This document shows, in pieces, positions 50-61,926 of a stretch of 64,000 nucleotides of DNA. Origin of the DNA: Knoellia koreensis (GTDB lineage Bacteria > Actinomycetota > Actinomycetes > Actinomycetales > Dermatophilaceae); the NCBI RefSeq assembly GCF_013041615.1, contig NZ_JABEPQ010000002.1, positions 930,001-994,000 on the forward strand. The letters run 5' to 3'. A program made the translations under genes and the position numbers. Under the pieces are notes generated by a model that searched no databases, was not told where the DNA came from, and was given only the letters and a program-made list of their open reading frames with translations. How positions within the stretch are numbered: position 1 is the stretch's first letter; every line of letters starts with the position of its first letter.

Positions 50-400
50 ATGCCCGGCCGCGCACTGCCCCTCGCGCCCGCCACGGAGGAGGCCTGCTGC
101 GGAAGCCTCGCCTCCGACGAGGCGATGACGACCGCGGACGCCGAGGCCACGGCATACCTCCTCAAGGCGGTGGCCGACCCGGCGCGGCTGCGCCTCCTGT
201 CCCTCATCCGTTCCTCGAAGGACCAGGAGGCCTGCGTCTGCGACCTCACCCCGGCCGTCGGGCTCTCGCAGCCGACCGTGAGCCACCACCTCAAGGTGCT
301 GACCGAGGCCGGGCTGCTCACCCGCGAGCGCCGCGGCACGTGGGCGTGGTTCCGGCTCGTCCCCGAGCGGCTCGACGACCTCGCCGCGATCTTCCGCTGA
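50..400 (+). CDS. ArsR-family metal(loid)-responsive repressor
   Basis: Winged-helix repressor of the ArsR/SmtB family, 116 residues. The recognition helix is around residues 72-84 (LSQPTVSHHLKVL). Just before it is A-C-V-C-D-L with Cys62 and Cys64, the CxC pair that arsenite- and some cadmium-sensing members use as metal ligands, and a further Cys16-Cys17 pair lies near the N-terminus; a thiophilic metal or arsenic signal is therefore inferred. The start is fixed by GGAGG at 41-45, four bases before the ATG. The next gene is another ArsR-family member with a different sensor site, so the two probably answer to different metals. Its own target may lie upstream, outside the window. Confidence 0.85.
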   Translation: MPGRALPLAPATEEACCGSLASDEAMTTADAEATAYLLKAVADPARLRLLSLIRSSKDQEACVCDLTPAVGLSQPTVSHHLKVLTEAGLLTRERRGTWAWFRLVPERLDDLAAIFR

Positions 401-411
401 GCTCGGCTTAC

Positions 412-433
412 TATTTGCGTATGCACGCAAATA
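412..433. promoter_or_regulatory. Perfect inverted repeat, probable KmtR operator
   Basis: Arms TATTTGCGT and ACGCAAATA are separated by ATGC, and that ATG is the start codon of the repressor gene at 421. ArsR-family dimers bind such AT-rich dyads inside GC-rich DNA. An operator lying over the start codon implies tight autoregulation, and the downstream exporter would be co-repressed. No Shine-Dalgarno sequence precedes the ATG, so the mRNA is probably leaderless or nearly so. Confidence 0.75.
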
Positions 434-780
434 CGCAACCACCTGACCTGGACGAGGACTTCGTCACCGTGGCGGTCGAGGTCCTGCGCGTGCTCGCCGA
501 CCCGACGCGGCTTCGGCTGGCCGGTGCGCTGCTCGACGAGGAGAAGTCGGTGACCCAGCTCGCCTCCGAGCTGGAGCGTCCCGTGCCGGGCATCTCCCAG
601 CACCTTGCCAAGCTGCGCATGGCCCGCCTCGTGACGACCAGGCGGCAGGGGACCTCGGTTCTCTACCGCGTGGAGAACGGTCACGTGCGCCAGCTCGTCC
701 TCGACACCTTGGGCCACGTGGAGCACCTGCTCGATGCGGTGCCCGCACACCACCGCGGCACCGACGGGACGGCGTCGTGA
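421..780 (+). CDS. kmtR: KmtR-like nickel/cobalt-sensing ArsR repressor
   Basis: ArsR-family repressor of 119 residues that closely resembles M. tuberculosis KmtR from memory (LADPTRLRL, then SQHLAKLRMARLV in the recognition region). The Ni/Co ligands reported for KmtR are H88, E101, H102, H110 and H111. With the ATG at 421 this protein has His88, Glu101, His102, His110 and His111 at exactly those numbers, which supports both the assignment and the start. KmtR controls a cation diffusion facilitator, and here such a gene follows directly, its GTG overlapping this gene's TGA (GTGA). The operator is the palindrome at 412-433. Confidence 0.85.
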   Translation: MHANTQPPDLDEDFVTVAVEVLRVLADPTRLRLAGALLDEEKSVTQLASELERPVPGISQHLAKLRMARLVTTRRQGTSVLYRVENGHVRQLVLDTLGHVEHLLDAVPAHHRGTDGTAS

Positions 781-1802
781 GTTGCGGCGACCACGGCCGC
801 GCCCACGCGGCATACGACGCGCACGACCACGACCACGACCACGACAGCACCTTCGCGGGGCGGCTGCGACACCTGCTGTCCGAGCTGTTCGGCGCCCACT
901 CCCACGACGCCACCGACCAGGTCGACGCCGCGCTGGAGGCTGACGCGCGCGGTCGACGTGCCCTCTGGATCAGCCTGGGCGTCCTCGCCGTGACGGCTGC
1001 CGCCCAGGCCGTCATCGTCGCGTTCACCGGCTCAGTGGCCCTGCTCGGTGACACCCTCCACAACGTCGCCGACGCGCTCACCGCGGTACCGCTGCTGGTC
1101 GCCTTCGCCCTGGCGCGCAAGTCGGCCAACGACCGCTACACCTACGGCTACGGGCGCGCCGAGGACCTCGCCGGCCTCTTCGTGGTGGCGATGATCGCGT
1201 TGTCGAGCATCCTCGCCGGCTACGAGGCGATCAAGCGTCTGCTCGACCCCCAGGACGTCAGCCACCTCTGGGCGGTGGCGGCGGCCGGAGTCGTCGGCTT
1301 CGCTGGCAACGAGGTGGTGGCGCGATACCGCATCAGGGTCGGCCGCCAGATCGGCTCCGCGGCCCTCGTGGCCGACGGCCTGCACGCGCGCACCGACGGC
1401 TTCACGTCGTTGGCAGTCGTCCTCGGCGCCGCTGGGGTCGCGGCCGGGCTCCCGTGGGCCGACCCGGTCATCGGGCTGCTGATCGCGATCGCCATCCTCG
1501 GCGTGCTCCGGTCTGCGGCTCGGCAGGTCGGGGCGCGACTGATGGATGCCGTCGACCCCGAGCTGGTCGGCACCGCTCGCGAGGCGCTCGGCTCGGCGCG
1601 CGGTGTCCAGGCCGTGCGAACGGTGCAGCTGCGCTGGATCGGCCACACCCTGCACGCCGAGGCCGACCTCACCGTCGCAGACGGGCTCACGATCGAGCAG
1701 GCCCACGCCATCGCCCACCACGCCGAGTCACACCTCGTCGACCGGTTGCCCAGGCTCGCCGCCGCGAACGTCCACGTCAGCCCGGTGAGCGCCCACCACT
1801 GA
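777..1802 (+). CDS. Cation diffusion facilitator (metal exporter)
   Basis: Inner-membrane divalent-metal/proton antiporter of the CDF family, 341 residues with about six transmembrane helices. The N-terminus is rich in His and Asp (alternating HDHDHDHD near residues 16-23), a typical cytosolic metal-collecting loop. Transport-site motifs are GDTLHNVADAL in TM2 and ADGLHARTDG in TM5 (the HxxxD signature). The C-terminal cytosolic domain runs from about residue 245. The GTG start overlaps the repressor's stop, so translation is coupled. Ni/Co export is inferred from the KmtR-type regulator; Zn or Cd cannot be excluded. Confidence 0.88.
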   Translation: MSCGDHGRAHAAYDAHDHDHDHDSTFAGRLRHLLSELFGAHSHDATDQVDAALEADARGRRALWISLGVLAVTAAAQAVIVAFTGSVALLGDTLHNVADALTAVPLLVAFALARKSANDRYTYGYGRAEDLAGLFVVAMIALSSILAGYEAIKRLLDPQDVSHLWAVAAAGVVGFAGNEVVARYRIRVGRQIGSAALVADGLHARTDGFTSLAVVLGAAGVAAGLPWADPVIGLLIAIAILGVLRSAARQVGARLMDAVDPELVGTAREALGSARGVQAVRTVQLRWIGHTLHAEADLTVADGLTIEQAHAIAHHAESHLVDRLPRLAAANVHVSPVSAHH

Positions 1803-1807
1803 ACCAG

Positions 1808-2434
1808 TCAGCAGTTCGCATCGAGCATCCCCTCGATCGCGGTCTTCTCGGCCGAGTCGACGGCCAGGTCCCAGAAGTACTTCACGTTGATCCACTCACG
1901 CACGTACTCGCACCGCCACGCCGTCCGCGTCGGCTGCCACTGCGCGGGGTCCTTGTCGCCCTTGCTGCGGTTGCTCGACGCCGACACCGCGATGAGCTGG
2001 GGCCGGGTGAGGTCGTTGGCGAACGCCTTGCGCTGGTCACTGGTCCACGCGTCGGCGCCCGAGCCCCATGCCTCGGCGAGCGGCACGACGTGGTCGATGT
2101 CGAAGGTCGACGGGTCGCTGGTCGAGACACCGTCGTAGACGCTGAACCACGACCCCTTCGTCGCCGCGCAGCTGCTGTCCACCACGACGCCGGTGCCGTC
2201 ACGCTTGATGACGCTCTCGCGGGTGGTGCAGCCGTTCACGGTGATCCAGTGCGTGAACAGGGTCCGGTCGTAGCCCACGTTGTCCTCCGCACGCACCGCC
2301 AGCTGCGTGAGCTGGCTGCGTGAGTCACTCACGCTCGGGGCGGGCGGTGGCAGAGCGGCGGCGGCATCGGCACCAACCGGCACCGCGACGAGGGCGAGGA
2401 TGGCGACGGCAAGGGCGCGCGGGGTTCTGGCCAT
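1808..2434 (-). CDS. Secreted HNH-family nuclease (DUF1524-like)
   Basis: Predicted exported nuclease of 208 residues. The N-terminus MARTPRALAVAILALVAVPV is a signal peptide. The mature protein carries the HNH-like core FDIDHVVPLAEAWGSG followed by RKAFANDL and SNRSKGDKDP..W, the pattern of small secreted actinobacterial endonucleases of the GmrSD/DUF1524 type. Two Cys pairs may form disulfides. I chose the ATG at 2434 because it starts the signal peptide; an in-frame GTG at 2506 would put 24 extra residues before it. It converges on the CDF gene with a 5-bp gap. Nutrient DNA breakdown or competitor attack are both possible. Confidence 0.75.
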   Translation of the reverse strand: MARTPRALAVAILALVAVPVGADAAAALPPPAPSVSDSRSQLTQLAVRAEDNVGYDRTLFTHWITVNGCTTRESVIKRDGTGVVVDSSCAATKGSWFSVYDGVSTSDPSTFDIDHVVPLAEAWGSGADAWTSDQRKAFANDLTRPQLIAVSASSNRSKGDKDPAQWQPTRTAWRCEYVREWINVKYFWDLAVDSAEKTAIEGMLDANC

Positions 2435-2565
2435 GAGCACCGACCCTGCACCTGCGGCGGCGCCCGTGGGCAACCACCGCACCAACGCCGGGTTCGTGTT
2501 TGGCACGGGTTGTCCAAGGTGGGGTCAAGTGTGCCGCCAGCGGCGCCCTTGGCTAGTTTTCGGGT

Positions 2566-3243
2566 ATGCCGCCTGCTCCCCTGACCGACCTCGTGCACCC
2601 TTCGTGGGTGCCGGCGTTGGAACCGGTCGCGGACACGGTGGCCGAGCTGGGTGAGTTCCTGCGGGCCGAGGTCGCGGCGGGGCGGGGCTACCTGCCGGCG
2701 GGCGAGCACGTGCTGCGCGCCTTCGAACGGCCGCTCGACGACGTGCGGGTCCTCATCGTCGGCCAGGACCCCTACCCCACCCCGGGCCACGCGGTGGGAC
2801 TGTCGTTCTCGGTGGCCCCGGACGTCCGGCCCATCCCCAAGTCGCTCGTCAACATCTACAAGGAGCTCCAGACCGACCTCGGTGTCCCCGCACCCACCAA
2901 CGGTGACCTCTCACCGTGGGCCGACCACGGCGTGCTCCTGCTCAACCGCGTCCTGACCGTCCGGCCGGGCACGCCGGCCAGCCACCGCGGCAAGGGCTGG
3001 GAGCACGTCACCGCCGCCGCCATCAGCGCCCTCGTCGAGCGCGGCGGGCCGCTCGTGGCGATCCTGTGGGGCAGGGACGCGCGCAACCTCGCGCCGCACC
3101 TCCACGGCATACCAGCCATCGAAAGTCCCCACCCCTCACCGCTTTCCGCGCACTCGGGATTCTTCGGGTCGCGCCCGTTCAGCCGCGCCAACGAGCTGCT
3201 CGCACAGCAGGGCGCCGACCCCGTCGACTGGAGGCTGCCGTGA
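2566..3243 (+). CDS. ung: Uracil-DNA glycosylase
   Basis: Family 1 UDG, 225 residues, which removes uracil from DNA in base excision repair. The water-activating loop [11 protein letters not shown] holds the catalytic Asp, and the leucine loop [18 protein letters not shown] holds the catalytic His. Length is normal. There is no Shine-Dalgarno; a TAGTTT box starts 12 bases before the ATG, as expected for a leaderless transcript. The next gene overlaps its stop (GTGA). Confidence 0.95.
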
Positions 3244-4070: not shown

Positions 4071-5922
4071 CCCGGCATCCGCCCTCGCGCCACGGGTGCA
4101 GGCCGCCATCCGGGCCGCTCTGGGTGATGAGTTCGCCGACACCGATCCCGTCATCCGCCCCTTCGCGCTCAAGACCAAGAAGGGGCCTAACACCAAGCAG
4201 GACAAGGGTTTCCAGCCCGGTGGGGGCACGGCTGCACCGACGCGGCCAGCAGCCGACCTGCAGGTGAATGCCGCGATGTCGCTGGCCAAGCGGGCGGGGC
4301 GTCCGCCACGCGAGGTGGCCGAGGCGATCGTGGCGGCCCTGCGCGAGGCAGGGGTCGACGACCTCGTCGCTGGGCTGGAGGTGGCGGGTCCCGGCTTCGT
4401 CAACGTGACGCTGGCCGACGACTGGGTGACCGGCGCGACCCGTGAGCTGCTCGCGGACGACCGGCTCGGCATACCGACCCCGGCCCGTGAGGTCATCCCG
4501 ATCGACTACTCCTCGCCCAACGTGGCCAAGGAGATGCACGTCGGTCACCTGCGCACGACGGTGGTCGGCGACTCACTCGCGCGCACCCTCGAGCGGCTCG
4601 GGCACCACGTCATCCGGCAGAACCACATCGGCGACTGGGGCACGCCGTTCGGCATGCTCGTCGAGCACCTGCTCGAGGTCGGCGAGGACTCGGCCGAGGC
4701 GGAGCTGCTCGAGGTCGACCCGAACGCGTTCTACCAGGCGGCCAACGCGAAGTACCGGGCGACGAAGGACGACCCGTCGCCCGACTCGTTTGCCGTGCGG
4801 GCGCGACGCCGGGTGACCCTGCTCCAAAGCGGCGACGCCGAGACCTACCGCATCTGGGAGCAGCTGCTCGACCGGTCCAAGGCCTACTTCAACCGGGTCT
4901 ACGACGAGCTCGACATCACGCTCACCGACGCCGACCTCGACGGTGAGTCCCGTTACAACGACGAGCTGCCCGCCATCGGCGCCGACCTCGAGGAGCGCGG
5001 CATCGCCGAGGTCAGCGACGGGGCGTTGTGCGTGTTTCTCGACGGCTACACGGGGCGAGACGGCGCGCGCCTGCCGCTCATCGTCCGCAAGTCCGACGGC
5101 GGCTACGGCTACGCCACGACCGACATCGCCACCCTGCGTCACCGGTCGCTCGACCTCGACGCCGACCGCGCCCTCTACGTCGTCGGCGCACCGCAGCACC
5201 TGCACTTCGAGATGTCCTGGAAGGCCACCGAGCTCGCCGGCTGGACCCGCGACAAGACCCGCCCGATCCACGTCCAGATCGGCAACGTCCTCGGCACCGA
5301 CGGCAAGCTCCTGCGCACCCGCTCCGGCGACCTCGTGTCGCTGCAGTCGCTCGTCGACTCCGCGATCGAGCGCGCGGCCCAGGTCGTGGCCGAGTCGCGG
5401 CCCGACCTCGACGAGGTGGCCCGCGGCAGCATCGCCCACGCCGTCGGCATCGCCGCCATCAAGTACGCCGACCTGTCGGTCTCGCACGACAGCGAGTACG
5501 TCTTCGACCTCGACCGGATGGTCGCGCTGACCGGCAACACCGGCCCCTACCTGCAGTACGCCGCGGCACGCATCCGGTCGATCCTGCGCCGGGCGGCATC
5601 GGAGGGCGGCTCCGGCGAGGTGCCGGCAGCCGACCAACCAGTGCTCGAGCTCACCGAGCCGGCCGAACGGGCGCTGGCGCTCCGGCTGCTCGACTACGGA
5701 CGCGTCGTGGCCGAGGTCGGGGACACGCTCGAGCCGCACCGCCTCGCGGCATACCTCTTCGACCTCGCCTCGGCGTTCACGACCTTCTACGAGCACTGCC
5801 CCGTGCTCAAGGCGCCGACCCCGCAGGTGCGGGCCAGCCGGTTGGAGCTGTGCACCCTCACGCTGCGCGTCCTCACCGATGGCCTCGGCCTGCTCGGCAT
5901 CACCGCCCCCGACGAGATGTGA
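4063..5922 (+). CDS. argS: Arginyl-tRNA synthetase
   Basis: Class I aminoacyl-tRNA synthetase of 619 residues that charges tRNA-Arg. Seen: an N-terminal additional domain, the nucleotide-binding signature SSPNVAKEMHVGHLRTT (HVGH is the HIGH motif), QNHIGDWGTPFG, and the C-terminal anticodon-binding DALR domain (GPYLQYAAARIRSILRRA). ArgRS normally lacks a clear KMSKS, and none is seen. ATG 4063 overlaps the preceding gene; an in-frame upstream start at 4000 would lie deep in that gene and is less likely. Confidence 0.96.
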   Translation: MTDPASALAPRVQAAIRAALGDEFADTDPVIRPFALKTKKGPNTKQDKGFQPGGGTAAPTRPAADLQVNAAMSLAKRAGRPPREVAEAIVAALREAGVDDLVAGLEVAGPGFVNVTLADDWVTGATRELLADDRLGIPTPAREVIPIDYSSPNVAKEMHVGHLRTTVVGDSLARTLERLGHHVIRQNHIGDWGTPFGMLVEHLLEVGEDSAEAELLEVDPNAFYQAANAKYRATKDDPSPDSFAVRARRRVTLLQSGDAETYRIWEQLLDRSKAYFNRVYDELDITLTDADLDGESRYNDELPAIGADLEERGIAEVSDGALCVFLDGYTGRDGARLPLIVRKSDGGYGYATTDIATLRHRSLDLDADRALYVVGAPQHLHFEMSWKATELAGWTRDKTRPIHVQIGNVLGTDGKLLRTRSGDLVSLQSLVDSAIERAAQVVAESRPDLDEVARGSIAHAVGIAAIKYADLSVSHDSEYVFDLDRMVALTGNTGPYLQYAAARIRSILRRAASEGGSGEVPAADQPVLELTEPAERALALRLLDYGRVVAEVGDTLEPHRLAAYLFDLASAFTTFYEHCPVLKAPTPQVRASRLELCTLTLRVLTDGLGLLGITAPDEM

Positions 5923-6016: not shown

Positions 6017-7186
6017 ATGCCTGCGACGCGTCTGATGCCCACCGAGGAGGGCCAGGACCTCATCGACCTCACCCGCGAGATCTGCGCCAAGGAGCTCCTG
6101 CCGCAGGTCGACGAGGCCGAGCGCCGCGCCGCCACCACCCCCGAACTGCCGGTCGACGCGTTCCGCACCCTCGGCAAGGCCGGCCTGCTGTCGCTCCCCT
6201 ACCCCGAGGAGTTCGGCGGCGCCGACCAGCCCTACGAGGTCTACCTCCAGGTCGTCGAGGAGATCGCGTGGGCATGGATGTCGGTCGCGGTGGGCGTCTC
6301 GGTCCACTCGCTCACCTGCTACCCCGTGGCCCAGTTCGGCACGCGCGCCCAGCAGGAGGCCCTGCTCCCCGCGATGCTCTCCGGCGACCAGCTCGGCGCC
6401 TACTGCCTCTCCGAGCGCGCGGCCGGTTCCGACATCGCCTCGATGACCACCAAGGCGACGCCCGACGACCAGGCCGACCCCACGGCATACCGAATCAAGG
6501 GCACCAAGGCCTGGATCAGCCACGCTGGTCACGCCGACTTCTACACGAGCTTCGTGCGCACGTCCGACGACGGCGGCCGCGGCCTGTCGTGCTTCGTCGT
6601 GCCGGGCGATGCGACCGGGCTGACGTTCGGCACCCCCGAGAAGAAGATGGGACTGCACTGCGACACGGTCAGCGAGGTGCACTTCGACGGGGTCGAGGTC
6701 GGCGCCGACCGGCTGGTCGGCGAGCGCGGGCAGGGCATGGCCATCGCACTGTCGGCCCTCGACTCCGGCCGGCTCGGAATCGCCGCTGCCGCAACGGGTC
6801 TCGCACAGCGCGCCCTCGACGACGCCGTCGCCTACGCCAAGGAGCGCGAGCAGTTCGGCCGGCCCATTGCCGACAACCAGGGCCTTGCGTTCATCCTCGC
6901 CGACATGGAGGCCGCCGTCACGAGCGCCCGCGCGGCCTTCCTCCACGCCGCCCGGCTCCGCGACGCAGGTCGCCCCTTCAGCAAGGAGGCGGCGGTCGCC
7001 AAGCTGGTCGCCACCGACAACGCGATGCGCGTGACCACCGACGCCGTCCAGGTGCTTGGCGGAGCCGGGTACACCCAAGACTTCCCGCTCGAGCGCTTCA
7101 TGCGCGAGGCCAAGGTGACCCAGATCTTCGAGGGCACCAACCAGATCCAGCGGCTCGTCATCGGACGCCACCTCCTGAAAGGCTGA
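6017..7186 (+). CDS. Acyl-CoA dehydrogenase
   Basis: FAD-dependent acyl-CoA dehydrogenase, 389 residues, catalysing alpha,beta-dehydrogenation of an acyl-CoA. FAD/substrate motifs YCLSERAAGSD and KAWISHAGHADFY are present, as is the C-terminal catalytic base in QIFEGTNQIQR (Glu). A TACCCT box begins exactly 12 bases before ATG 6017, supporting a leaderless start there; a GTG at 6011 is the alternative. It is followed 6 bases later by a short-chain dehydrogenase, suggesting a small oxidation operon for short or branched acyl-CoAs. Confidence 0.9.
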   Translation: MPATRLMPTEEGQDLIDLTREICAKELLPQVDEAERRAATTPELPVDAFRTLGKAGLLSLPYPEEFGGADQPYEVYLQVVEEIAWAWMSVAVGVSVHSLTCYPVAQFGTRAQQEALLPAMLSGDQLGAYCLSERAAGSDIASMTTKATPDDQADPTAYRIKGTKAWISHAGHADFYTSFVRTSDDGGRGLSCFVVPGDATGLTFGTPEKKMGLHCDTVSEVHFDGVEVGADRLVGERGQGMAIALSALDSGRLGIAAAATGLAQRALDDAVAYAKEREQFGRPIADNQGLAFILADMEAAVTSARAAFLHAARLRDAGRPFSKEAAVAKLVATDNAMRVTTDAVQVLGGAGYTQDFPLERFMREAKVTQIFEGTNQIQRLVIGRHLLKG

Positions 7187-7192: not shown

Positions 7193-7957
7193 TTGCAGCT
7201 CAACGACTCCAGCGTCGCGCTCGTCACCGGTGGCGCATCCGGCCTCGGCGAGGCCACGGTCCGCCGCCTCCACGCCGACGGTGCCGCCGTCGTCATCCTC
7301 GACCTGCCGTCGTCGCCCGGCGAGGCCCTGGCCGCCGAGCTCGGCGACCGCGTCCGGTTCGCGCCGACCGACGTGCGCGACGAGGCGCAGGTGCAGGCCG
7401 CGATCGACACCGCGGCCGAGCTAGGCACGCTGCGCGTCGTCGTCAACTGCGCCGGCATCGGCACCCCCGGTCGCGTCGTCGGCAAGAACGGCCCGCTCGC
7501 CCTCGAGAAGTTCCAGTCGGTCATCGACATCAACCTCGTCGGCACCTTCAACGTCCTGCGCCTCGCCGCCGCCGCGATGATCCCGAACGAACCGGTCGAC
7601 GGCGACCGTGGCGTGAACGTCATGACCGCGTCGATCGCCGCCTATGACGGACAGATCGGACAGGCCGCGTATGCCGCGAGCAAGGGTGGCATCGTCGGCC
7701 TCACCCTGAGTGCCGCGCGGGACTTGGCAGACAAGGGAATCCGCGTCGTCACGGTGGCGCCCGGCACCTTCATGACGCCGATGCTGGCTGGCCTGCCCGA
7801 GGAGGCCACCAAGGTCCTCGAGACCCAGGTGCCGCACCCGTCGCGACTCGGCCAGCCCGCGGAGTACGCCAACCTGGTGCGCCACATCGTCGACAACGGG
7901 ATGCTCAACGGCGAGGTCATCCGGCTCGACGGCGCCCTGCGGATGCCCCCGCGCTGA
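7193..7957 (+). CDS. SDR-family 3-hydroxyacyl-CoA dehydrogenase (type II-like)
   Basis: Short-chain dehydrogenase of 254 residues. Rossmann motif [11 protein letters not shown] near residues 11-21, NCAG at about 85, catalytic Ser in [13 protein letters not shown], and YAASKGG (Tyr-Lys pair). Sequence style and pairing with an acyl-CoA dehydrogenase fit a 3-hydroxyacyl-CoA dehydrogenase of the HSD17B10 type acting in beta-oxidation or isoleucine breakdown; the exact substrate is inferred. The start is TTG at 7193 with GAAAGG about ten bases upstream. Confidence 0.85.
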
Positions 7958-8038: not shown

Positions 8039-8902
8039 ATGACTGAAGCAGCCACGCCCGCCCGCGCCAAGCGCACCGTCACCAGCGCCACCGTCGCGCG
8101 CACCGAGTGGCTCGCGCCCGACATGGTGCGCCTGGTGCTCACCGGGCCCGAGCTCGCGAACCTGCCCGAGCTCCAGCACACCGACCACTACGTCAAGCTG
8201 CTGTTCCCGGCGCCGGGCGCGGCATACCGCTGGCCCTTCGACCCCGACGAGCTGCGCGAGACCCTGCCACGCGAGCAGTGGCCGGTCACGCGGGCCTACA
8301 CGATCCGGTCCTTCGACCGCGAAACCCTCGAGCTGACAGTCGATTTCGTCGTCCACGGCGACGAGGGCATCGCCGGACCGTGGGCCGCAGCCGCCCAGCC
8401 CGGTGACGCGATCGGCTTCTTCGGACCGGGAGGCGCCTGGGGTCCGAGCCCCGTGGCCGACACGTTCCTCCTGGTCGGCGACGCCGCCGCCATCCCCGCC
8501 ATCGCCGCCGCCCTCGACCGGCTCCCACCGCACGCCGTTGCCCAGGCTTTTCTCGAGGTCGAGGACGCCACGACCCACGTCCCGCTCCCCCAGGGCGACA
8601 ACATCGCGGTCACCTGGGTGCACCACGCCGACGAGCCCGACCGCCCCGTCGGCGACCAGCTCGCCGAGGTGGTCCGGGCTGCTGGCCTGCCGACCGGTGA
8701 GGTCCACGCCTTCGTCCACGGCAACGCGGGCATGGTCAAGGACCTGCGCCGCTGGCTCTTCGTCGAGCGGGGCCTGCCCCGCGACCGGGTGTCGATCTCC
8801 GGCTACTGGCGCTCGGGCTTCACCGACGAGGGCTGGCGTTCGGTGAAGAAGGAGTTCACCGCCGAGATGGAGCGCGAGGAGCAGGCCCTCCAGTCCCACT
8901 GA
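8039..8902 (+). CDS. Siderophore-interacting protein (ferric-siderophore reductase)
   Basis: SIP/ViuB-family flavoprotein, 287 residues, which releases iron from imported ferric siderophores in the cytosol. The FAD-binding beta-barrel carries RAYTIRSFD and DFVVHGDEGIAGPWA; the NAD(P)H-binding half carries LLVGDAAAIPAIAA and ends GYWRSGFTDEGW, typical of the family. The ATG directly follows the iron box, so expression should be iron-repressed. It converges on an AraC-family regulator. Confidence 0.92.
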   Translation: MTEAATPARAKRTVTSATVARTEWLAPDMVRLVLTGPELANLPELQHTDHYVKLLFPAPGAAYRWPFDPDELRETLPREQWPVTRAYTIRSFDRETLELTVDFVVHGDEGIAGPWAAAAQPGDAIGFFGPGGAWGPSPVADTFLLVGDAAAIPAIAAALDRLPPHAVAQAFLEVEDATTHVPLPQGDNIAVTWVHHADEPDRPVGDQLAEVVRAAGLPTGEVHAFVHGNAGMVKDLRRWLFVERGLPRDRVSISGYWRSGFTDEGWRSVKKEFTAEMEREEQALQSH

Positions 8903-8927
8903 CGACGCACGGCCGTATGCCGCCCGC

Positions 8928-9644
8928 TCACCCCCGCGCCGACGCGCCACCGAAGATCGTGGGGGCCACCGCCGCCGCACGCACCTCGCCGGGGGTCATG
9001 CCCAGCTCGGTACGGCAGGCCGCCGCGAACGCCGACTGACTCCGAAATCCCACCCGGGCCGACGTCACCGCCACCGAGTCCCCAGCGCGCAGGAACGTCA
9101 CCGCCGCAGCGAGGCGCACCTTCGTGCGCCACCGCCGGAACGGCATACCCGTCTCGGCGACGAACGCCCGCTGGAGCGTCTTGGGGCTCACGTGCACCGC
9201 GCACGACCACTCGACCAGGCTCTCCGGACGGCTCGGGTCGCGCAGCAGTGCGAGTGCGACAGCACGCGCGGGTCCCACCAGCGGGACGGGCGCTCGTCCC
9301 TCGTCGCGGAGCAGCACCCCCACCAGCGTGTGCACCCGCGCGTGCGACCTGGTGCGCGCCTCGGCTGAGCCGGCACCCTCCTGGAGCGCCGAACGGACGA
9401 GGCGGTCGAGCACGTCGGTGCGCAGGACGGGGGTCGCGACGTCGACCCAGCCGTCGTGGTCCGCGGCCGCGAACCGCAGTGACAGGACCAGGCTGCCGTC
9501 GTCGACGTGCACGCGGTGGGCCTCGCCAGCTGGCAGCCACAGGGCCCACTGCGCGTCGACCGGGTGACGGTGTCCGTCGGCCTCGATGAGACCACGCCCG
9601 TCAGCGGTCCACGCGAGCTCGTGCTCGGCATGCCTCAGCCACAT
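8928..9644 (-). CDS. AraC-family regulator, likely iron-linked
   Basis: 238-residue regulator: an N-terminal cupin-like sensor (MWLRHAEHELAW through about residue 120) and a C-terminal double helix-turn-helix (VSPKTLQRAFVAETG, then ARVGFRSQSAFAAACRTELGMTP). The start at 9644 is chosen because GGGAGGA lies just upstream; the reading frame continues further but without a matching signal. About 60 bases upstream is a second DtxR-like box. An AraC regulator under DtxR-type control beside iron genes recalls RipA of corynebacteria, which represses iron-using proteins; this role is inference. Confidence 0.83.
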   Translation of the reverse strand: MWLRHAEHELAWTADGRGLIEADGHRHPVDAQWALWLPAGEAHRVHVDDGSLVLSLRFAAADHDGWVDVATPVLRTDVLDRLVRSALQEGAGSAEARTRSHARVHTLVGVLLRDEGRAPVPLVGPARAVALALLRDPSRPESLVEWSCAVHVSPKTLQRAFVAETGMPFRRWRTKVRLAAAVTFLRAGDSVAVTSARVGFRSQSAFAAACRTELGMTPGEVRAAAVAPTIFGGASARG

Positions 9645-10077: not shown

Positions 10078-10629
10078 TCAGGCCGCGACGGCCACCCAGT
10101 ACCGCAGCTTCCCCGAGCGCTCGTCCTCGAACTTGCCGCCATTCGCCTCGATCACCTTGCGCGAACCCACGTTGTCGGTGTCGCACGTGACGAGCACCCG
10201 GTCCAGCGGGTAGTGGGCAGCCACGATGGGCAGCATCGCCGCGAGCATGGCCCTCGCATGACCCCGGCGCCGGTGCTCCGGCGCCACGTCGTAGCCGATG
10301 TGCCCACCAAGCTCGCGTAGCCCGTCGGTCAGTGGATACCTCATCTGGATGCGCCCCAGGTACTCGTTCCCGTCGACCCACCAGAGCGTCCACGACGGCA
10401 CGAAGCCCGTCGGTCTCGGCGTCTCGGGCAGGCGCTCGGCGCGCAACGCGTCGACGTATGCCGCGAAGCCGGGTTGGTCTCGCCAGCGCGGCTCCCACGT
10501 CGCGAGGGCCCGTCCGATCGACGACCGGTCATCCGGGCCGCCTCGGCCCTCGGCGCGGAACCCGTCCATCGCCCGAAGGAACGACTCGTGGAACTGGACA
10601 TCGGGCTCGGCGAGGTGAGCAGGCGGCAT
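10078..10629 (-). CDS. GNAT-family N-acetyltransferase
   Basis: 183-residue acetyltransferase. The acetyl-CoA loop is YDVAPEHRRRGHARAMLAAML (R/Q-x-x-G-x-A type), with the later conserved DTDNVGSRKVIEANGG. No membrane or secretion signal; substrate unknown. ATG 10629 is preceded by GAGG at normal distance; the frame runs on upstream to 10845 across the gabT palindrome, which is unlikely to be coding. The start codon overlaps a copy of the GGCATAC motif. Confidence 0.85.
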   Translation of the reverse strand: MPPAHLAEPDVQFHESFLRAMDGFRAEGRGGPDDRSSIGRALATWEPRWRDQPGFAAYVDALRAERLPETPRPTGFVPSWTLWWVDGNEYLGRIQMRYPLTDGLRELGGHIGYDVAPEHRRRGHARAMLAAMLPIVAAHYPLDRVLVTCDTDNVGSRKVIEANGGKFEDERSGKLRYWVAVAA

Positions 10630-10679
10630 ACCACCATCCTCACAGCGAAAACGGTTGGCCGCCAATGAGTTTGCACCAT

Positions 10680-19807: not shown

Positions 19808-24169
<4,362 letters not shown>

Positions 24170-43989: not shown

Positions 43990-44061
43990 ACGTCAAATGT
44001 ACGGTCCACGGCATACCGACACCGACCGCGACCGCCTGTGCGCGCACGCCACACCCCAGAT

Positions 44062-52675: not shown

Positions 52676-53656
52676 TCAGATGCCCACGGCGACGATCGCG
52701 CCCACGGGCTCGCCGTGGCCGAGCACCGGGGAGTCCTCGAGCTGGGCCAGTGCCGCCGACTCGACCCCGAGCCGGCGCAACGCGGCGGCGAGGATGACCG
52801 GCTTCGCCCGCTGGTAGCCGTCGGCCACCTTGAGGGCGATGCCACGACCGTCGGCCAGCCCCACGGCGTACACCGACTCCGCCCCGTCCTTGGCGATGAG
52901 GCCGGGCGTCGCCTCGATGAGCGCCGTGACGTCGCGGCCGGTGCCGCCGAGGTATGCCGGGTGGCTGCGGATCGCGTCGGCGACCTGGCCCTCGAGGGTG
53001 TCGGGGCCGGCGGACGCGAGGCGGCCGAACGCGCGGGCCAGCCCGGAGAGGGTGACCGCCATGACGGGGGCACCACAGCCGTCGACCGCGGTCGCGGCCA
53101 CGGTGTCGCCGGTGAGCTCCTCGAGCGTGTCCTTGATCGCGACCTGCAACGGGTGGTCGGGCTCGCGGTAGCTCGCGGTGTCCCAGCCGCCCACGACGCA
53201 GGTGGCGAGCATGGCGGCGTGCTTGCCCGAGCAGTTCTGGGTGATGGGGAGCTTGCCGCCGCCGCTGCGGATGACCTCGAGCTTGGCCTCCTCGTTGACC
53301 GGGTAGTCCGGCGTGTTCTGCAGCGCACCCTCGGTGAGCCCGACCGAGGCGAGCATGGCGCGGACGGCCTCGACGTGGAAGTCCTCACCCGAGTGGCTGG
53401 CGGACGCGAGCGCGAGGTGCTCCGGCGGCATGCGCAGGCCGTGGCGCATCATGGCCAGGGTCTGGATCGGCTTGTTCGACGACCGGGGGAAGATCGGGTC
53501 GCGCGTGTTGCCGAGGTCGAGCAGGTGCTCACCGTCGGGGGCGGTCGCGACGACCGACGCGCGGTGCGCCGACTCGATGAAGCCGCCCCGGACGTAGTGC
53601 GCGAGGACGGGCGCGTCGGCGAGGACGGCAGGGGTTTGGGGGTCCACGGAACTCAC
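52676..53656 (-). CDS. Asparaginase II family protein
   Basis: 326 residues of the bacterial asparaginase_II family, unrelated to the E. coli enzymes. [33 protein letters not shown] and [14 protein letters not shown] (Ser-Gly-Lys-His) are family signatures. It should convert asparagine to aspartate, though few members are tested. GTG with TAGGGT 12 bases upstream. Confidence 0.87.
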
Positions 53657-55180: not shown

Positions 55181-56020
55181 TCAGCGACGGGGCTTGATGG
55201 CCAGGAGGGTGCGCGCGTCGTCGGTGGACATGGCCGGGCGCTGCATGACCTCGGCGAGGTGGGCGGCGCGCTCCACGAGCTGGGCGTTGTGCTCGACGGG
55301 TATGCCGCGGGCGAAGACGACGTTGTCCTCCATCCCCACGCGCAGGTGGCCGCCGGCGGCGAGGGCAGCGGCGGCGATCGGCAGGTGGGTGCGGCCGATG
55401 CCGGTCGCGGACCAGGACGTCACCTCGGCCGGCAGCATCGCGACGCCCGCCATCAGCGCAGCCGGTGTGCCCGGCATACCTCCCGGCACACCGGTGACGA
55501 AGTCGACGTGCACCTTCCCACCGAAGGGGAGGCCGTGCTTGTCGATGAGCCGCGCCAGCGACGCGACGTGCCCGAGGTCGAACAGCTCGAACTCGGGGAC
55601 GACCTCGCGCTCCTGCGCCTGCACGTAGAGGTCGGACATGAAGCCCGACGGGTTGAGGAACACGTCGTCGCCGAAGTTGGTGGTGCCACAGGTGAGCGAG
55701 CACGAGTCGGGTTCGGCGTCGAGGACGGTCAGGCGCTGCTCGAGCGGGTCGTGGACCGAGCCACCGGTGGAGAGCTGGATGACCAGCGACGTCTGCTCGC
55801 GCAGCGCGTCGACCGCGGCCTTGAGGTGGCCGTGGTCGAGGGTGGGCCGGTGCTCGCCGTCGCGGATGTGCAGGTGGATCATCGCCGCGCCTGCGGCCTC
55901 GCACCGCTGCGCGGTCTCGACGAGCTCCTCGAGCGTCGTCGGCAGCTGCGGGAAGTCCGCCTTGTCGAGCTCGGCGCCGGTGGGCGCGACGGTGATCAGG
56001 GTGCCGGGGGTGGTGGCCAT
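55181..56020 (-). CDS. Beta-keto acid cleavage enzyme (DUF849/BKACE)
   Basis: 279 residues, TIM barrel with Zn. IHLHIRDGEHRPT carries the metal-binding His pair; GKVHVDFVTGVPGG and HLRVGMEDNVVFARG are family signatures. BKACE enzymes condense a beta-keto acid with acetyl-CoA and cleave it; the specific substrate is unknown. Start uncertain: ATGs at 56020, 56029 and 56032 are all in frame without a clear ribosome site. Confidence 0.88.
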   Translation of the reverse strand: MATTPGTLITVAPTGAELDKADFPQLPTTLEELVETAQRCEAAGAAMIHLHIRDGEHRPTLDHGHLKAAVDALREQTSLVIQLSTGGSVHDPLEQRLTVLDAEPDSCSLTCGTTNFGDDVFLNPSGFMSDLYVQAQEREVVPEFELFDLGHVASLARLIDKHGLPFGGKVHVDFVTGVPGGMPGTPAALMAGVAMLPAEVTSWSATGIGRTHLPIAAAALAAGGHLRVGMEDNVVFARGIPVEHNAQLVERAAHLAEVMQRPAMSTDDARTLLAIKPRR

Positions 56021-56062: not shown

Positions 56063-57142
56063 TCAGGGCGCGACCACGACCTCCTGCGCGGCGCTGACAC
56101 CACCGGCGTCGAGCGTTGCGTCGACCGGGGTGTTGCGCTTGACCACGGCGAGCGCGATCGGCCCGTCCTCGAAGTGGCGGGCCACCGTGGTGAGCCGCCC
56201 GACCTCGCGCCCGTCGAGGCTGACCGGCGCACCCGCCTCGGGCAGCGTGTGCCCCGAACCGTCGAGGTGCAGGAACACGACCCGGCGCGGCGGACGGCCG
56301 AGGTTGTGCACCCGCGCGATCGTCTCCTGCCCGCGGTAGCAGCCCTTGTGCAGGTGCACGGCCGTGCGCAGCCAGTCGACCTCGTGCGCGATCGTCCGGT
56401 GGTCGGTCTCGAAGCCCAGCCGCGGCCGCCAAGCCGCCACCCGCAGCGCCTCGCTGGCCCAGGTGCCGGCCAGGTCGCGGTCCCCGACCGCGTCGACGAG
56501 GGACTCGCGGGGCACGAGGACCTCACGCCACCGTCGCCCGTGTGCCGGGTGGCCTTCGACCGGGCCGTATGCCGCGGTGTCGCCGACGAGCCCCGGCCAC
56601 GGGTCGACCCACGCGACCGGTTCGCCGGGCTGCGACTCGTTGCCGACGGGTTCGCCGAGGACGGCGATGTCGTCGGTGCGATCGGTCACCTCGACGCGCA
56701 GCATGAACCGCATCGAGTCGAGCCACGCGGCGAGCGCCGGAGCGGTGCCGGGCTCGACGGTGATCCAGGTCGTCTCGCCGTCGTCGACGACGTGCAGGTC
56801 GTGCTCGACATGCCCTTTGGGGCTGAGGACCAGCGCCTCGGTGGAGGTGTGCGGCGCGAGGCCGGTGAGCTGCTGGCTGGTGATCGAGTGCAGCCACGAG
56901 AGCCGGTCGGGGCCGGTGACGGTGACGACGCCTCGGTTGGACAGGTCGACGACGGCCAGACCCTCGGACAGTAGCCGCTGCTCGCGCAGCGGGTCGCCGT
57001 AGTGGGCCGCCACCCCGGCGTCGGCACCCTCGGCCTCGACGGCGCCGGCGCGCTCCAGCAGCGGCGAGCGCCGCGCCGCGCCGGTCTGCTCGACGGTCGC
57101 CTCGGTCGACTCGCCGGTCGGCGACTGGGTCGGCTCGGTCAT
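56063..57142 (-). CDS. ygfZ: YgfZ/GcvT-fold folate-binding protein
   Basis: 359 residues. Tetrahydrofolate-binding GcvT-like fold with the YgfZ signature KGCYRGQETIARVHNLGRPP (Cys present). YgfZ supports iron-sulfur cluster enzymes. The ATG overlaps the fur-family stop (ATGA), so an Fe-S maintenance gene is coupled to a metal or peroxide regulator. Confidence 0.88.
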   Translation of the reverse strand: MTEPTQSPTGESTEATVEQTGAARRSPLLERAGAVEAEGADAGVAAHYGDPLREQRLLSEGLAVVDLSNRGVVTVTGPDRLSWLHSITSQQLTGLAPHTSTEALVLSPKGHVEHDLHVVDDGETTWITVEPGTAPALAAWLDSMRFMLRVEVTDRTDDIAVLGEPVGNESQPGEPVAWVDPWPGLVGDTAAYGPVEGHPAHGRRWREVLVPRESLVDAVGDRDLAGTWASEALRVAAWRPRLGFETDHRTIAHEVDWLRTAVHLHKGCYRGQETIARVHNLGRPPRRVVFLHLDGSGHTLPEAGAPVSLDGREVGRLTTVARHFEDGPIALAVVKRNTPVDATLDAGGVSAAQEVVVAP

Positions 57143-57552
57143 CGGCTGCACTGCGCACACTCCCCGTGGACGGCCATGTGGGTCATGTCAGCGACAAAGC
57201 CCCTGGCCCCCAGAACATTCCCCACGAACGTCTCCGCCAGCTCACGGGGACACTCGTCCACCCGGCCGCACACGCGGCATACGAGGTGGATGTGGGTGGC
57301 GTGATCGGCAAGGTGGTAGCTGGGCGCCTTGTGGTCGAGGTGGGTGTGGGTGACCACGCCCAGCGACTCGAGCGCCTCGAGCGCCCGGTACACGGTCGAG
57401 GCGGCGAGGCGCGCACCACCGTCGGCGGCGACGAGCTCGACGACCTGCTCGGGGGTGACGTGACCCGCGCGGCTCACGGCGTCGAGGACACGCTGGCGTT
57501 GCGGCGTCATCCGCCGCCCCTGGGCCCGCAGCCGGTCACCGACGTCCTGCAT
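57139..57552 (-). CDS. Fur-family regulator
   Basis: 137 residues. N-terminal winged helix (RMTPQRQRVLDAVSR, STVYRALEALESLGVV), dimer domain with HIHLVCRVCG and the closing HGECAQC; the two CxxC pairs form the structural Zn site. Whether it senses iron, zinc or peroxide cannot be told. TACAGT lies 12 bases before ATG 57552, and the divergent LCP gene also starts with a leaderless promoter. Confidence 0.9.
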   Translation of the reverse strand: MQDVGDRLRAQGRRMTPQRQRVLDAVSRAGHVTPEQVVELVAADGGARLAASTVYRALEALESLGVVTHTHLDHKAPSYHLADHATHIHLVCRVCGRVDECPRELAETFVGNVLGARGFVADMTHMAVHGECAQCSR

Positions 57553-58628: not shown

Positions 58629-58634
58629 GCACAC

Positions 58635-58667
58635 GGCATACGCCGCCTGCGTCGAGCAAGGTATGCC
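58635..58667. terminator. Inverted pair of GGCATAC motifs after the LCP gene
   Basis: GGCATAC at 58635 and GTATGCC at 58661 could pair as a 7-bp stem with a 19-base loop, between the convergent LCP and nitrobindin genes. A weak terminator at best. Confidence 0.4.
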
Positions 58668-58727
58668 GCGGGGTCGCCGAGGGCCCGCCAGAAGACTCGC
58701 CCAGTCGGCCCGCGCCGGCGCGACCGC

Positions 58728-59731: not shown

Positions 59732-59801
59732 CCGGCCGCGTCCTGGGCGGGGCCGGTATGCCGTGTGCGCGCCAGCCGTCGAAGGCCGCCCCGGCGCCGG
59801 G

Positions 59802-60662
59802 TCAGCGGGAGAAGATCGGCAGGAAGACCACCGTGAACACCACGACCCCGGGCAGCAACGAGGACGCGGCGGCCGACGCGAGCTGCGAGCGCGGGTGGGC
59901 CGCGGCGGGCAGGGGCGCCAGCACCCGACGGGCCGCGTGCGACACGGCTGCCGTCAGCAGCCCGAGCAGCGCACCGAGGGCCGGCGACGGACCGCCGCCG
60001 AGCACTGCGACGGCCATGGCGGCGAGGCCACCGGCGAGCATCGCGATGAACAGCGCCCACTGCCGGGTGCGGTGCACCGCGATAAGGGGGTCGGCGAGGG
60101 CGCCGACCCCAAGGCCCGCCATGGCACAGGCGAGCGCGTGGGAGCCGTCGAGCGCATGGGGGACGGCGGAGTATGCCGTGCCGGCGGCGATGATCGCGAG
60201 GCCGGCGATGCTCGCGGCCATGGACTCGGTGAGGCGCGGGCGACCGTCGCGACGCAACAGCTGGTGCAGGAAGGCCCCGATGACGGCCACCGCGAGCGCC
60301 GCGGGCATCCACCGCAGCCAGGGGTCGTCCGGTGTCAGCAGCACCGCCGCCGCGAGCAGCAGGGTTCCGGCCGCGAGCACACCCGTGGTGCCGCGGGGGC
60401 TCGGCAGCCCGAGCAGCCAGGGCCAGCCCCACGCGAGGACGAGCCCCCCGAGCGCCACCGCGAGGACGACGAACCGCGGGCTGGCGTAGCCCGTCAGGGC
60501 GATGAGAGCCGCCAGGGCCACCGTCCCGGCAATGGTCAGCGGCCTGACCGCGGTCGCGCGGCGCGGCAACGGGACACGCCCGTGCGCCGCCTCCCGGCGC
60601 TCTCGCCGAGTCAGGGGCAGGACCGGCGACGGCTCCTGCTTCTCCTCTGACACAAGGGGCAT
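59802..60662 (-). CDS. Polytopic membrane protein, unknown
   Basis: 286 residues: a basic cytosolic N-terminus of about 45 residues (LPLTRRERREAAHGRVPLPR) and seven to eight hydrophobic helices. No recognised domain. It follows moaD by 7 bases on the same strand. A TTG at 60683 overlapping moaD is an alternative start. Confidence 0.68.
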   Translation of the reverse strand: MPLVSEEKQEPSPVLPLTRRERREAAHGRVPLPRRATAVRPLTIAGTVALAALIALTGYASPRFVVLAVALGGLVLAWGWPWLLGLPSPRGTTGVLAAGTLLLAAAVLLTPDDPWLRWMPAALAVAVIGAFLHQLLRRDGRPRLTESMAASIAGLAIIAAGTAYSAVPHALDGSHALACAMAGLGVGALADPLIAVHRTRQWALFIAMLAGGLAAMAVAVLGGGPSPALGALLGLLTAAVSHAARRVLAPLPAAAHPRSQLASAAASSLLPGVVVFTVVFLPIFSR

Positions 60663-60669
60663 CCTTGCA

Positions 60670-60930
60670 TCACCCTCCGGCAAACGGTGGCAGTACCTCG
60701 ACGACGGCGCCGTCGGGCACGGCAGCGTCCCGCTGGGCGCTGCGCCCGTCGAGCAGCAGGCTGCTCACGGCCGCCACCGGGGCCAGCTCCGGGCGCAGCG
60801 CGGTGGCCGCCGCGACGACGTCACCGACCGTCGCGCAGCCGGTCACGACGTCGCTGTCGACACCGGCCGCAGCGCGCGCAGCCGCCCAGTAGCGGACGGT
60901 GACCGCACCGCCCTTCGGGCCACCCGGCAT
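60670..60930 (-). CDS. MoaD/ThiS-family sulfur carrier
   Basis: 86 residues, ubiquitin-like: [14 protein letters not shown] at the start, [33 protein letters not shown] at the end with the essential Gly-Gly terminus (read in parts). MoaD of molybdopterin synthase is favoured by the RYWAAAR opening. GAGGAG precedes ATG 60930. No moaE is adjacent. A molybdenum link to the mod operon at 13-16 kb is plausible. Confidence 0.84.
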
Positions 60931-61043
60931 ACCGGCTCCTCGTCGTCGTGGTCGGCGTCGGAAGACGCCGCGTTGGTGAGACAACGATCTCACCATGCGT
61001 CGGCACCCGCTCCGACGGGCCCCGCCCCGTACCCTTGGTGGGC

Positions 61044-61733
61044 ATGGCTCGTCTCCTGCTGCTGACGAACACCCTGGCGCCCAGCGCCGAGGTGCTTCCG
61101 GCGCTGGGCCTGCTGAGCCACCACGTGCGGGTGCTGCCCGCCGAACCCACCGCCCTGGTCGATGCTCCCCCGGCCGACGCCGTCATGCTCGACGCCCGCC
61201 GCGAGCTGGCCGTCGCGCGGTCGCTGTGCCGGGTCTTGCGCGTCAGCGGCATGTCCGTGCCGCTGCTCGCGATCGTGACCGAGGGCGGCCTCGCCGGCCT
61301 CACCGCCGAATGGGGCGTCGACGACGTGCTGCTCGACTCGGCCGGTCCCGCGGAGGTCGAGGCGCGGCTGCGGCTGGCCACCGGCCGGCTCGCCGAGGCG
61401 ACCGAGCCCGAGGACGTCCAGATCACCGCCGGCGACGTCACCATCGACGAGGCGACCTACTCCGCGCGGGTCAAGGGGCGGCTGCTCGACCTGACCTACA
61501 AGGAGTTCGAGCTGCTCAAGTACCTCGCCCAGCACCCCGGCCGCGTCTTCTCGCGCGCCCAGCTGCTGCAGGAGGTCTGGGGCTACGACTACTACGGCGG
61601 CACGCGCACGGTGGACGTCCACGTGCGGCGGCTGCGCGCCAAGCTCGGCACCGACCACGAGGTGCTGATCGGCACGGTCCGCAACGTCGGCTACCGCTTC
61701 GTGCCCGCCGAGGAAGCCCTCGCGGACAGCTGA
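61044..61733 (+). CDS. glnR: Nitrogen regulator GlnR
   Basis: 229 residues, orphan OmpR-type regulator. [20 protein letters not shown] and [19 protein letters not shown] match streptomycete GlnR, whose receiver is atypical and not conventionally phosphorylated. The winged helix is complete ([34 protein letters not shown]). It controls nitrogen assimilation. TACCCT lies 14 bases before the ATG. Confidence 0.93.
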
Positions 61734-61746
61734 CTGCGGCGCACCT

Positions 61747-61836
61747 CAGCTTTTCCGCGTCATGCGGGAACTGTGAGGTTCGCTCGGTCTACTAAGGCGA
61801 GCGAAGCCAACTTTCGCGCATGACGCGGGAAAGCTG
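61747..61836. repeat. 90-bp inverted repeat element
   Basis: Arms CAGCTTTTCCGCGTCATGCG (61747-61766) and its complement with one mismatch (61817-61836), with inner pairing GGTTCGCTCG / CGAGCGAA. The 20-mer arm is identical to 53685-53704. It lies 13 bases after the glnR stop. Confidence 0.8.
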
Positions 61837-61854
61837 TGGCGCGGGGAAAAGGCT

Positions 61855-61889
61855 GCGGCGCCTCCCCGACGTGGTCGGGGAGGCGCCGC
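61855..61889. terminator. Bidirectional terminator hairpin
   Basis: Perfect 16-bp stem (GCGGCGCCTCCCCGAC arm) with a GTG loop, between the convergent glnR and 5'-nucleotidase genes; a GTATGCC motif follows at 61894. Confidence 0.85.
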
Positions 61890-61926
61890 CTTCGTATGCC
61901 GCGTGGCTACCGGGAGTGCCCCGGCG

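Follow-up and report, generated by a model that had tools for sequence, protein, structure and literature searches.

Why is one short DNA word iterated about once per kilobase along an actinobacterial chromosome? The question is raised by a stretch of 64,000 nucleotides from Knoellia koreensis (contig NZ_JABEPQ010000002.1, positions 930,001 to 994,000; hereafter the window), in which the original prediction, made from the letters, had tallied 35 GGCATAC and 36 GTATGCC; the exact count is identical. A C precedes the heptamer at 71/71 window sites, and the core is therefore the 8-mer CGGCATAC, which is asymmetric and forms no palindrome. Our results demonstrate that its iteration has a cause acting on the DNA itself and that its copies are spaced strand by strand. 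Judging from these and other genome features, CGGCATAC is somewhat probably a DNA-uptake signal like the DNA uptake sequence (DUS) of Neisseria or the uptake signal sequence (USS) of Haemophilus, here in a Gram-positive family and read per strand; uptake, first listed as one candidate role among others, has thus become the preferred reading.

Enrichment and position of the word

For the heptamer in the window, base composition predicts 6.1 copies, close to the 6-7 first estimated, and a first-order Markov model 2.3, so that the reported excess is real while its size, put at near tenfold, was too low. An order-5 Markov model, proposed earlier as a check, gave 67 copies for 71 observed and is uninformative on enrichment, since the 6-mers within the word hold the word's own excess; we relied instead on Markov models of order 1 and 3 and on a pair of codon shuffles. 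In a 464-kb sample (the window plus pieces of contig C1), the leading C accompanies 446 of 451 heptamers, and 446 octamers were observed where 7.4 (order 1) or 22.2 (order 3) are expected. The whole 4.28-Mb genome holds 2003 forward and 1983 reverse copies of CGGCATAC vs 60 and 54 of the reversed control word, and 864 kb of it (464 contiguous kb with the window at its end, and twenty 20-kb samples of C1) hold 917 copies (457 plus, 460 minus), i.e., 1.06/kb. Heptamer variants altered at position 1, 2, 3 or 7 occur 0-2 times each in the window. The 464-kb sample also displays flank preferences (C at -2, 74%; G/A at -1, 81%; C at -5, 59%; C directly after the octamer, 52%), the extended preference being C[G/A]CGGCATACC. 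The copies of CGGCATAC in the window are as follows (coordinates, strand, context).

150..157, plus
808..815, plus
2564..2571, minus, intergenic
3105..3112, plus, ATA codon
3356..3363, minus
4467..4474, plus, ATA codon
5747..5754, plus
6483..6490, plus
7669..7676, minus
8220..8227, plus
8915..8922, minus, intergenic
9141..9148, plus, Gly-Met-Pro
10456..10463, minus
10624..10631, plus, at gene edge
11187..11194, plus, Gly-Met-Pro
11924..11931, minus, ATA codon
12744..12751, minus, Arg-Met-Pro
12846..12853, plus
13560..13567, minus
14412..14419, plus, intergenic
15506..15513, minus, Gly-Met-Pro
16124..16131, plus
17210..17217, minus
17504..17511, minus
19669..19676, plus, intergenic
20754..20761, minus, intergenic
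21815..21822, plus
22970..22977, minus
23407..23414, plus
24239..24246, minus, intergenic
26428..26435, minus
26735..26742, plus, Arg-His-Thr
27748..27755, plus
28200..28207, plus, intergenic
28242..28249, minus, intergenic
29553..29560, minus, intergenic
30194..30201, plus
31143..31150, minus
33282..33289, minus, ATA codon
33954..33961, minus
34070..34077, plus
35175..35182, minus, intergenic
35611..35618, plus
36319..36326, plus
37033..37040, minus, intergenic
38065..38072, plus, intergenic
39018..39025, minus
39737..39744, plus
40297..40304, minus, ATA codon
41932..41939, minus, left hairpin arm, between convergent genes
41946..41953, plus, right arm of hairpin 41932-41953
44009..44016, plus, intergenic
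44865..44872, minus, intergenic
45137..45144, plus
45357..45364, minus
48058..48065, minus
48123..48130, plus
49124..49131, plus
49871..49878, minus
51270..51277, plus
52952..52959, minus
55300..55307, minus, ATA codon
55472..55479, plus, Gly-Met-Pro
56567..56574, minus
57275..57282, plus, Val-Cys-Arg
58634..58641, plus, intergenic, paired with 58661..58668
58661..58668, minus, intergenic, paired with 58634..58641
59756..59763, minus, intergenic
60171..60178, minus
60925..60932, plus, at gene edge
61894..61901, minus, intergenic

Two of these words form a 9-bp hairpin at 41932-41953, GTATGCCGC-gtgg-GCGGCATAC, which has convergent genes on either side and no T tract.

Cause at the level of the DNA

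Gene calls were self-made from codon usage and comprise 429 genes, or 782 in the 864-kb sample. All six coding frames are used (TAT-GCC 150, GCA-TAC 106, GGC-ATA 37, ATG-CCG 27, CGG-CAT 5 and GTA-TGC 4 in the 429 genes), and the enrichment is not a matter of Ala-Tyr codon pairs only, a point raised with the prediction. Its examples of unusual frames were right (Gly-Met-Pro at 9142, 11188 and 15506; Arg-His-Thr at 26736; Gly-Ile with an ATA codon at 3106, 4468, 11924, 33282, 40297 and 55300), as was the remark that the word is also frequent between genes: 22 of the 71 window sites are not wholly within a called gene, two of them overlapping a gene edge.

A by-product of codon or dipeptide usage would fit the Ala-Tyr and Tyr-Ala frames, which contain 256 of the 329 coding sites. 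However, the 782 genes hold 665 copies, whereas a shuffle of synonymous codons leaves 28.4 (at most 41 in 20 runs) and a reordering of the codons inside each gene 14.8 (at most 23); Ala-Tyr and Tyr-Ala dipeptides stand at only 1.05 and 1.19 of expectation; and 242 of the 917 copies in the 864-kb sample are intergenic vs 13.1% of its bases. These results refute the explanation, and we give it practically no credence. Within the same genes, 71 of the 101 ATA codons and 326 of the 541 TAT codons lie inside the word, and genic copies show a moderate orientation bias (289 sense, 376 antisense). The excess over the synonymous null and the use of six frames support what had been proposed from the window, that selection (to which we add drive) acts directly on the DNA; coding is not the cause.

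Strand-specific spacing

In the 864-kb sample, neighbouring sites are opposite in orientation in 635 of 896 cases, where shuffled orientations give 50.9 +- 1.7% (maximum 55.7% of 1000), and the window alone shows the same pattern (49/70 neighbours alternate, p = 0.0005). The coefficient of variation of same-strand gaps is 0.61, against 0.97 for a Poisson process and 0.86 (minimum 0.795) after orientation shuffling. Relative to expectation, same-strand pairs amount to 0.20-0.50 below 750 bp, 0.64-0.68 at 750-1250 bp and 0.84-0.92 at 1250-1500 bp, and beyond 1500 bp to about 1, save for 0.75-0.87 at 2.5-3 kb; opposite-strand pairs more than 120 bp apart stay at 0.78-1.19. Below 120 bp, 'minus then plus' pairs, of which the hairpin at 41932-41953 is an example, are in 1.9-fold excess (57 vs 30 expected) and 'plus then minus' pairs are not. 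When one strand was slid against the other, alternation still reached 66.8 +- 1.2% (maximum 70.1%), and therefore most of it reflects even spacing per strand, the small remainder being the close pairs. As controls, TCGCCGAC (295 sites) and CTGCGCGA (155) showed no same-strand depletion, TCGCCGAC being depleted instead in close opposite-strand neighbours (alternation 0.432); CGGCATCC (55 sites), CTCCCCCG (51) and TTCGGGCG (29) offer too few sites to be informative.

Thus, same-strand sites avoid one another within 1.25-1.5 kb and opposite strands are nearly independent, so the site seems to act strand by strand, i.e., to work on one strand. Equal strand use had been taken to argue against a polar signal; it tells against replication polarity only, since the same-strand avoidance indicates strand-wise action. 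A site for a nucleoid (chromosome-organising) protein, spread evenly over the genome, would agree with the under-dispersion of 10-kb bins (variance/mean 0.56 over 86 bins of the 864-kb sample), the intergenic enrichment and the defined core with its flank preference. Nevertheless, a double-strand binder gives no cause for avoidance among same-strand sites only, and 15 of 48 family genomes are without the word, which leaves such a protein very improbable. Independently of function, strand-by-strand spacing can serve as a measurable genome signature. It suggests a signal read along one strand rather than a site bound as double-stranded DNA, and the same measure could be taken for USS, DUS, Chi and the highly iterated palindrome HIP1.

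Replication

Replication polarity of CGGCATAC was rejected, both strands being equal on contig C1 and in both arm groups. These groups were separated by CTCCCCC/GGGGGAG: the eight C1 samples to 600 kb have a ratio of 1:49, the twelve lying at 660 kb and beyond one of 66:1, and the C8 stretch (C8:530001-994000 of the source genome G000) one of 96:8. We read this switch as the change between replication arms; CGGCATAC counts 71 plus/84 minus and 112 plus/108 minus in the two C1 groups. A role as FtsK-orienting polar sequence (KOPS) fits poorly, since CGGCATAC has no strand switch at origin or terminus whereas CTCCCCC does switch. If the word is read on one strand yet ignores replication, as it seems, it would be expected to work at DNA ends or upon fragments that enter the cell. 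As a separate observation, CTCCCCC/GGGGGAG is itself KOPS-like, and its switch on C1 between 600 and 660 kb (samples L003-L022) may mark the origin or the terminus.

Distribution and dialects among relatives

By cysteinyl-tRNA synthetase, the nearest named relatives belong to Pedococcus (82% and 79% identity), the name used here for the genus of G000 and its ten congeners (G001-G010). The survey covered 78 relatives, namely 48 genomes (38 genera) of the family, which we take to be Dermatophilaceae/Intrasporangiaceae, and 30 from other families of the order; to count as a carrier, a genome needs at least 100 copies on each strand and double the number of the reversed control. The distribution is patchy: 32 of the 48 family genomes (22/38 genera) carry CGGCATAC, 15 of the 48 are without it, and 0/30 genomes from the other families reach the threshold. 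The highest counts among the genomes surveyed are those of G017 (2348 + 2376). Loci of named organisms, each about 20 kb long, contain the following numbers of CGGCATAC copies.

P. cremeus, 14
Pedococcus sp. 5OH_020, 2
Nostocoides, 18
Serinicoccus, 21
Flexivirga, 14
Ornithinimicrobium, 7
Janibacter anophelis, 0
Phycicoccus jejuensis, 1

Related genera write single-base dialects, CGNCATAC or, in two genera, CGGCATCC; single-base DUS dialects are likewise documented in Neisseriaceae in the excerpted text of PMC3630211. The strict word is found in Pedococcus, G017, G032 and G035, and individual loci of Nostocoides, Intrasporangium and Serinicoccus (the last with a few T) also have it; CGNCATAC, with relaxed third base, is used by G037, G014, G013 and G044 and, judging from pieces of 20 kb, by G021, Flexivirga and Ornithinimicrobium. 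As an example, the third base of CGNCATAC in 200 kb of G037 is A 30, C 89, G 78 and T 101 times, with 3-4 each expected. Ten apparently CGGCATAC-negative genomes were sampled at 40 kb each, and one proved a dialect: G036 has 26 + 14 copies of CGGCATAC but 1972 + 1977 of CGGCATCC, and G026 has 1850 + 1966 of the latter. In the 40 kb of each of the nine others, neither CGNCATAC nor CGGCATCC comes near 1/kb, the highest being G011 (CGGCATCC 15 vs 3.9 expected).

Same-strand exclusion with near-independent opposite strands occurs in four genera (Pedococcus, G036, G037 and G014), and every dialect is spaced strand by strand in one genome or more. In G036, CGGCATCC alternates at 0.632 (null 0.500 +- 0.026), with same-strand pairs at 0.31 below 120 bp. 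Counting CGGCATAC alone, no clear exclusion was seen in G013, G044, G035 and G037; in G037 it was hidden because the third base is relaxed, and pooling CGNCATAC reveals it (z 5.5) and strengthens that of G014 (z 5.1). Words with non-G third bases alone alternate in G037 (z 4.6) and not in G036 (z -2.5), and spacing therefore tracks the enriched word. Note that pooled spacing of G001-G010 mixes orthologous regions and was not used as independent evidence. Two other enriched words, CCCCTTCG in G046 (41 sites) and CGGCGTAC in G033 (29), showed no significant alternation.

Maintenance and turnover

Around comEC in the 11 congeners, the word is intact in 518 of 909 aligned comparisons (ordered pairs, each pair counted twice) vs 21% of background octamers; from G000 only, 66/143 are intact vs 215/1128 (19%) of flanking octamers, 87 comparisons being unaligned. 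A single site is kept in 7/7 aligning congeners and several sites are kept in none, which indicates turnover. A phage recorded from Tetrasphaera jenkinsii, with a GC content of 57.7% (below that of the carriers), has 2 copies in 49 kb, equal to the reversed control.

A putative uptake signal

According to the excerpts available of the papers cited in this section, the Neisseriaceae DUS is a short exact word in thousands of copies with genus dialects differing by few bases (PMC3630211), found within and between genes and partly as inverted repeats (PMC1939737, PMC2346458), and the Pasteurellaceae USS has about 1-kb spacing, no replication bias, about 10% inverted repeats and a location mostly in open reading frames (PMC1939737, PMC7811141), its reverse complement being commoner in genes (PMC2346458), to be compared with the 289 sense and 376 antisense copies here. 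CGGCATAC shares with uptake signals its exact short form at about 1/kb, the lack of chromosomal orientation bias, the dialects, placement against codon use, intergenic enrichment, partly inverted pairs and a genome that encodes competence genes. It differs from DUS by belonging to a Gram-positive family, by its 8-bp GC-rich sequence, by the missing type IVa pilus (judged by PilM), by the strand-specific spacing and by the lack of an overall one-mismatch excess, and from USS by its unrelated sequence and per-strand spacing. The membership that we propose therefore concerns genome features.

As a mechanism, a surface or cell-wall competence protein (probably a Tad/Flp-type pilus with ComEA/ComEC) may bind the word on DNA from the environment, so that word-bearing fragments are imported preferentially. 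Because such fragments would be preferentially imported and recombined, the word would spread and be kept even against codon preference (molecular drive). Same-strand exclusion would arise because a second site within one imported length (1-1.5 kb) adds little, and the independence of the opposite strand because a site would direct the entry of one strand only. In Haemophilus influenzae, two USS within 100 bp gave no detectable rise in uptake in the excerpted account of PMC7811141, which is the redundancy that such exclusion requires. Genera with changed receptor specificity would drift to the dialects CGNCATAC and CGGCATCC, and lineages that lost specificity would lose the word.

The excerpted text of a review states that sequence-specific DNA uptake evolved in two families, Pasteurellaceae and Neisseriaceae (PMC5031613). 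Among the matches listed from the open-licence PubMed Central literature, where limited coverage leaves absence unproven, no account of uptake sequences in actinobacteria was found, and the exact words occur in three papers with unrelated titles. We tentatively extend our reading to a third, independent origin of such uptake, which no other Gram-positive phylum would have preceded. Here the word would be the point at which one defined strand enters: a Tad/ComEA/ComEC protein would cut or grip at CGGCATAC and import from there a single strand of about 1-1.5 kb. In this full form the reading appears rather doubtful. If true, the actinobacterial system would be the third independent case of sequence-specific uptake, its genus-level dialects would be mating barriers in environmental actinobacteria, and it would show DNA self-recognition evolving without an outer membrane while providing organisms with several dialects.

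Competence machinery

ComEC lies over the family cut-off in 73 of the 78 relatives, and the ComEA domain was detected in 72 of them at E <= 0.001 (45 over cut-off). In G000, comEA (L228:11250-11675) adjoins comEC (L228:8830-10938), both on the minus strand. The three carriers without a ComEC/ComEA match are fragmented assemblies (G039, G042 and G043, the last rated 95% complete). The Tad-type ATPase TIGR03819 is over cut-off in 64/78 genomes and 38/48 family genomes. Separately, the ComEC domain of G004 (C1:1517076-1517881), a genome with 1264 + 1273 words, is split between two frames, through either a gene disruption or an error of sequencing. In the actinobacterium Micrococcus luteus, transformation needs two tad loci (excerpt of PMC4322843), and the Tad pilus may stand in for the type IVa pilus, the kind which holds ComP, the DNA-binding minor pilin, in Neisseria.

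Several observations weigh against an uptake signal. First, the machinery does not track the word: ComEC and ComEA occur together in 15/15 family non-carriers and in 29/32 carriers, and TIGR03819 also matches 13/14 control genomes at E <= 0.001 (only over-cut-off matches were therefore counted) while ten family genomes lack an over-cut-off match, including G014, a carrier with exclusion. Since the machinery is also present in word-free genomes, ComEC, ComEA and the Tad ATPase were rejected as discriminators between carriers and non-carriers. Second, PilM, of the type IVa pilus, is missing in 46/48 family genomes (only G030 and G035 have it), and the receptor that uptake would call for was not found, no search being aimed at receptors. 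Third, the excerpt of PMC1939737 reports that uptake in H. influenzae does not depend significantly on how the USS is oriented, and the strand effect is therefore not a known property of uptake signals. Fourth, G013 (z 1.4) and G044 (z 1.5) give a weak exclusion that is no more than suggestive, and none was seen in G035 (n = 30), all three having few sites. Fifth, one-mismatch DUS copies are plentiful in Neisseriaceae (excerpt of PMC3630211), whereas the 24 one-base variants of CGGCATAC in the Pedococcus 464-kb sample sum to 323 vs about 329 expected (order-1 Markov); two of them are raised about twofold (CGGCATCC 86 vs 41, CGGCCTAC 30 vs 13) and several others are under expectation. Finally, compared with two named Pedococcus, window sites are kept in 6/27 cases (4/8 in P. 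cremeus and 2/19 in the sparse strain 5OH_020), hardly better than the flanks (37/211), with 115 unaligned.

Chi-like and methylation alternatives

Chi is an asymmetric 7-8-mer read on one strand, and Chi words vary between taxa. In the main rival to uptake, a helicase-nuclease at double-strand ends (AdnAB or other) would read CGGCATAC in one orientation and switch to recombination, for which a site each 1-2 kb on either strand would suffice; such polar reading would account for both same-strand exclusion and opposite-strand near-independence. However, known Chi sites (RecBCD/AddAB) have a replication-arm bias and CGGCATAC has none. RecC (PF04257) is present in G000 and in 0/10 congeners, all of them carriers, and in 6/32 family carriers (absent from 26) vs 9/15 non-carriers, and not in G036; being rarer in carriers and missing in congeners, it speaks against RecBCD-Chi as a general explanation, AddAB and AdnAB lying outside the search. 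In addition, CGGCATAC bears a rare-codon cost and forms inverted intergenic pairs, which to our knowledge are not habits of Chi. Altogether, a Chi-like signal appears unlikely. The RecC match of G000, the only one among the 11 congeners, and a match to N6 DNA methylase are separated by about 10 kb (C10:305703-306716 and C10:317149-318039), a region that is possibly an acquired island.

Methylation was among the roles first suggested: an orphan methylase would mark the word, and mismatch repair or selection would keep the mark. Cyanobacteria offer a precedent in HIP1, also a short word iterated genome-wide in many relatives with alternative words in some, the HIP and alternative HIP words being enriched with matching methylases (excerpt of PMC4390886). 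An asymmetric mark on one strand could likewise give strand discrimination and thereby yield strand-specific spacing, and at least one of four methylase families occurs in each of the 11 congeners. HIP1 is nevertheless palindromic and tied to methylases, whereas CGGCATAC is not palindromic and none of the four families is common to the 11 congeners (PF01555 in 3, PF02384 in 4, PF07669 in 6, PF00145 in 6), and the densest carrier, G017, matches none of the four, to which the search was limited in both cases. The suggestion is thus weakened; a HIP1-like role fits poorly and is improbable. Confidence outside uptake and a Chi-like signal is shared by methylation, a nucleoid protein or a cause not listed here.

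Other observations

Other words are enriched in genomes without CGGCATAC: CCCCTTCGC occurs 26 times in 40 kb of G046 (L102-L103) vs 1.5 expected, alongside C runs, and CGGCGTAC and CGACGTAC in G033 and GGCGTACG and GACGTACG in G034 are about 4-6-fold enriched (L096-L099). In G013 (L108-L112), TGGTAACCA, an inverted repeat with one central base, occurs 10 times in 100 kb vs 0.2 expected. Outside the family, CGGCATCC occurs 26 times in Microbacterium aerolatum (L203) and 13 times in Microbacterium sp. (L167), in 21 kb; codon usage or a system of comparable kind may account for this. In the window itself, a c-di-AMP riboswitch match (20555-20713) and an msiK RNA match (28362-28418) both lie over their Rfam thresholds.

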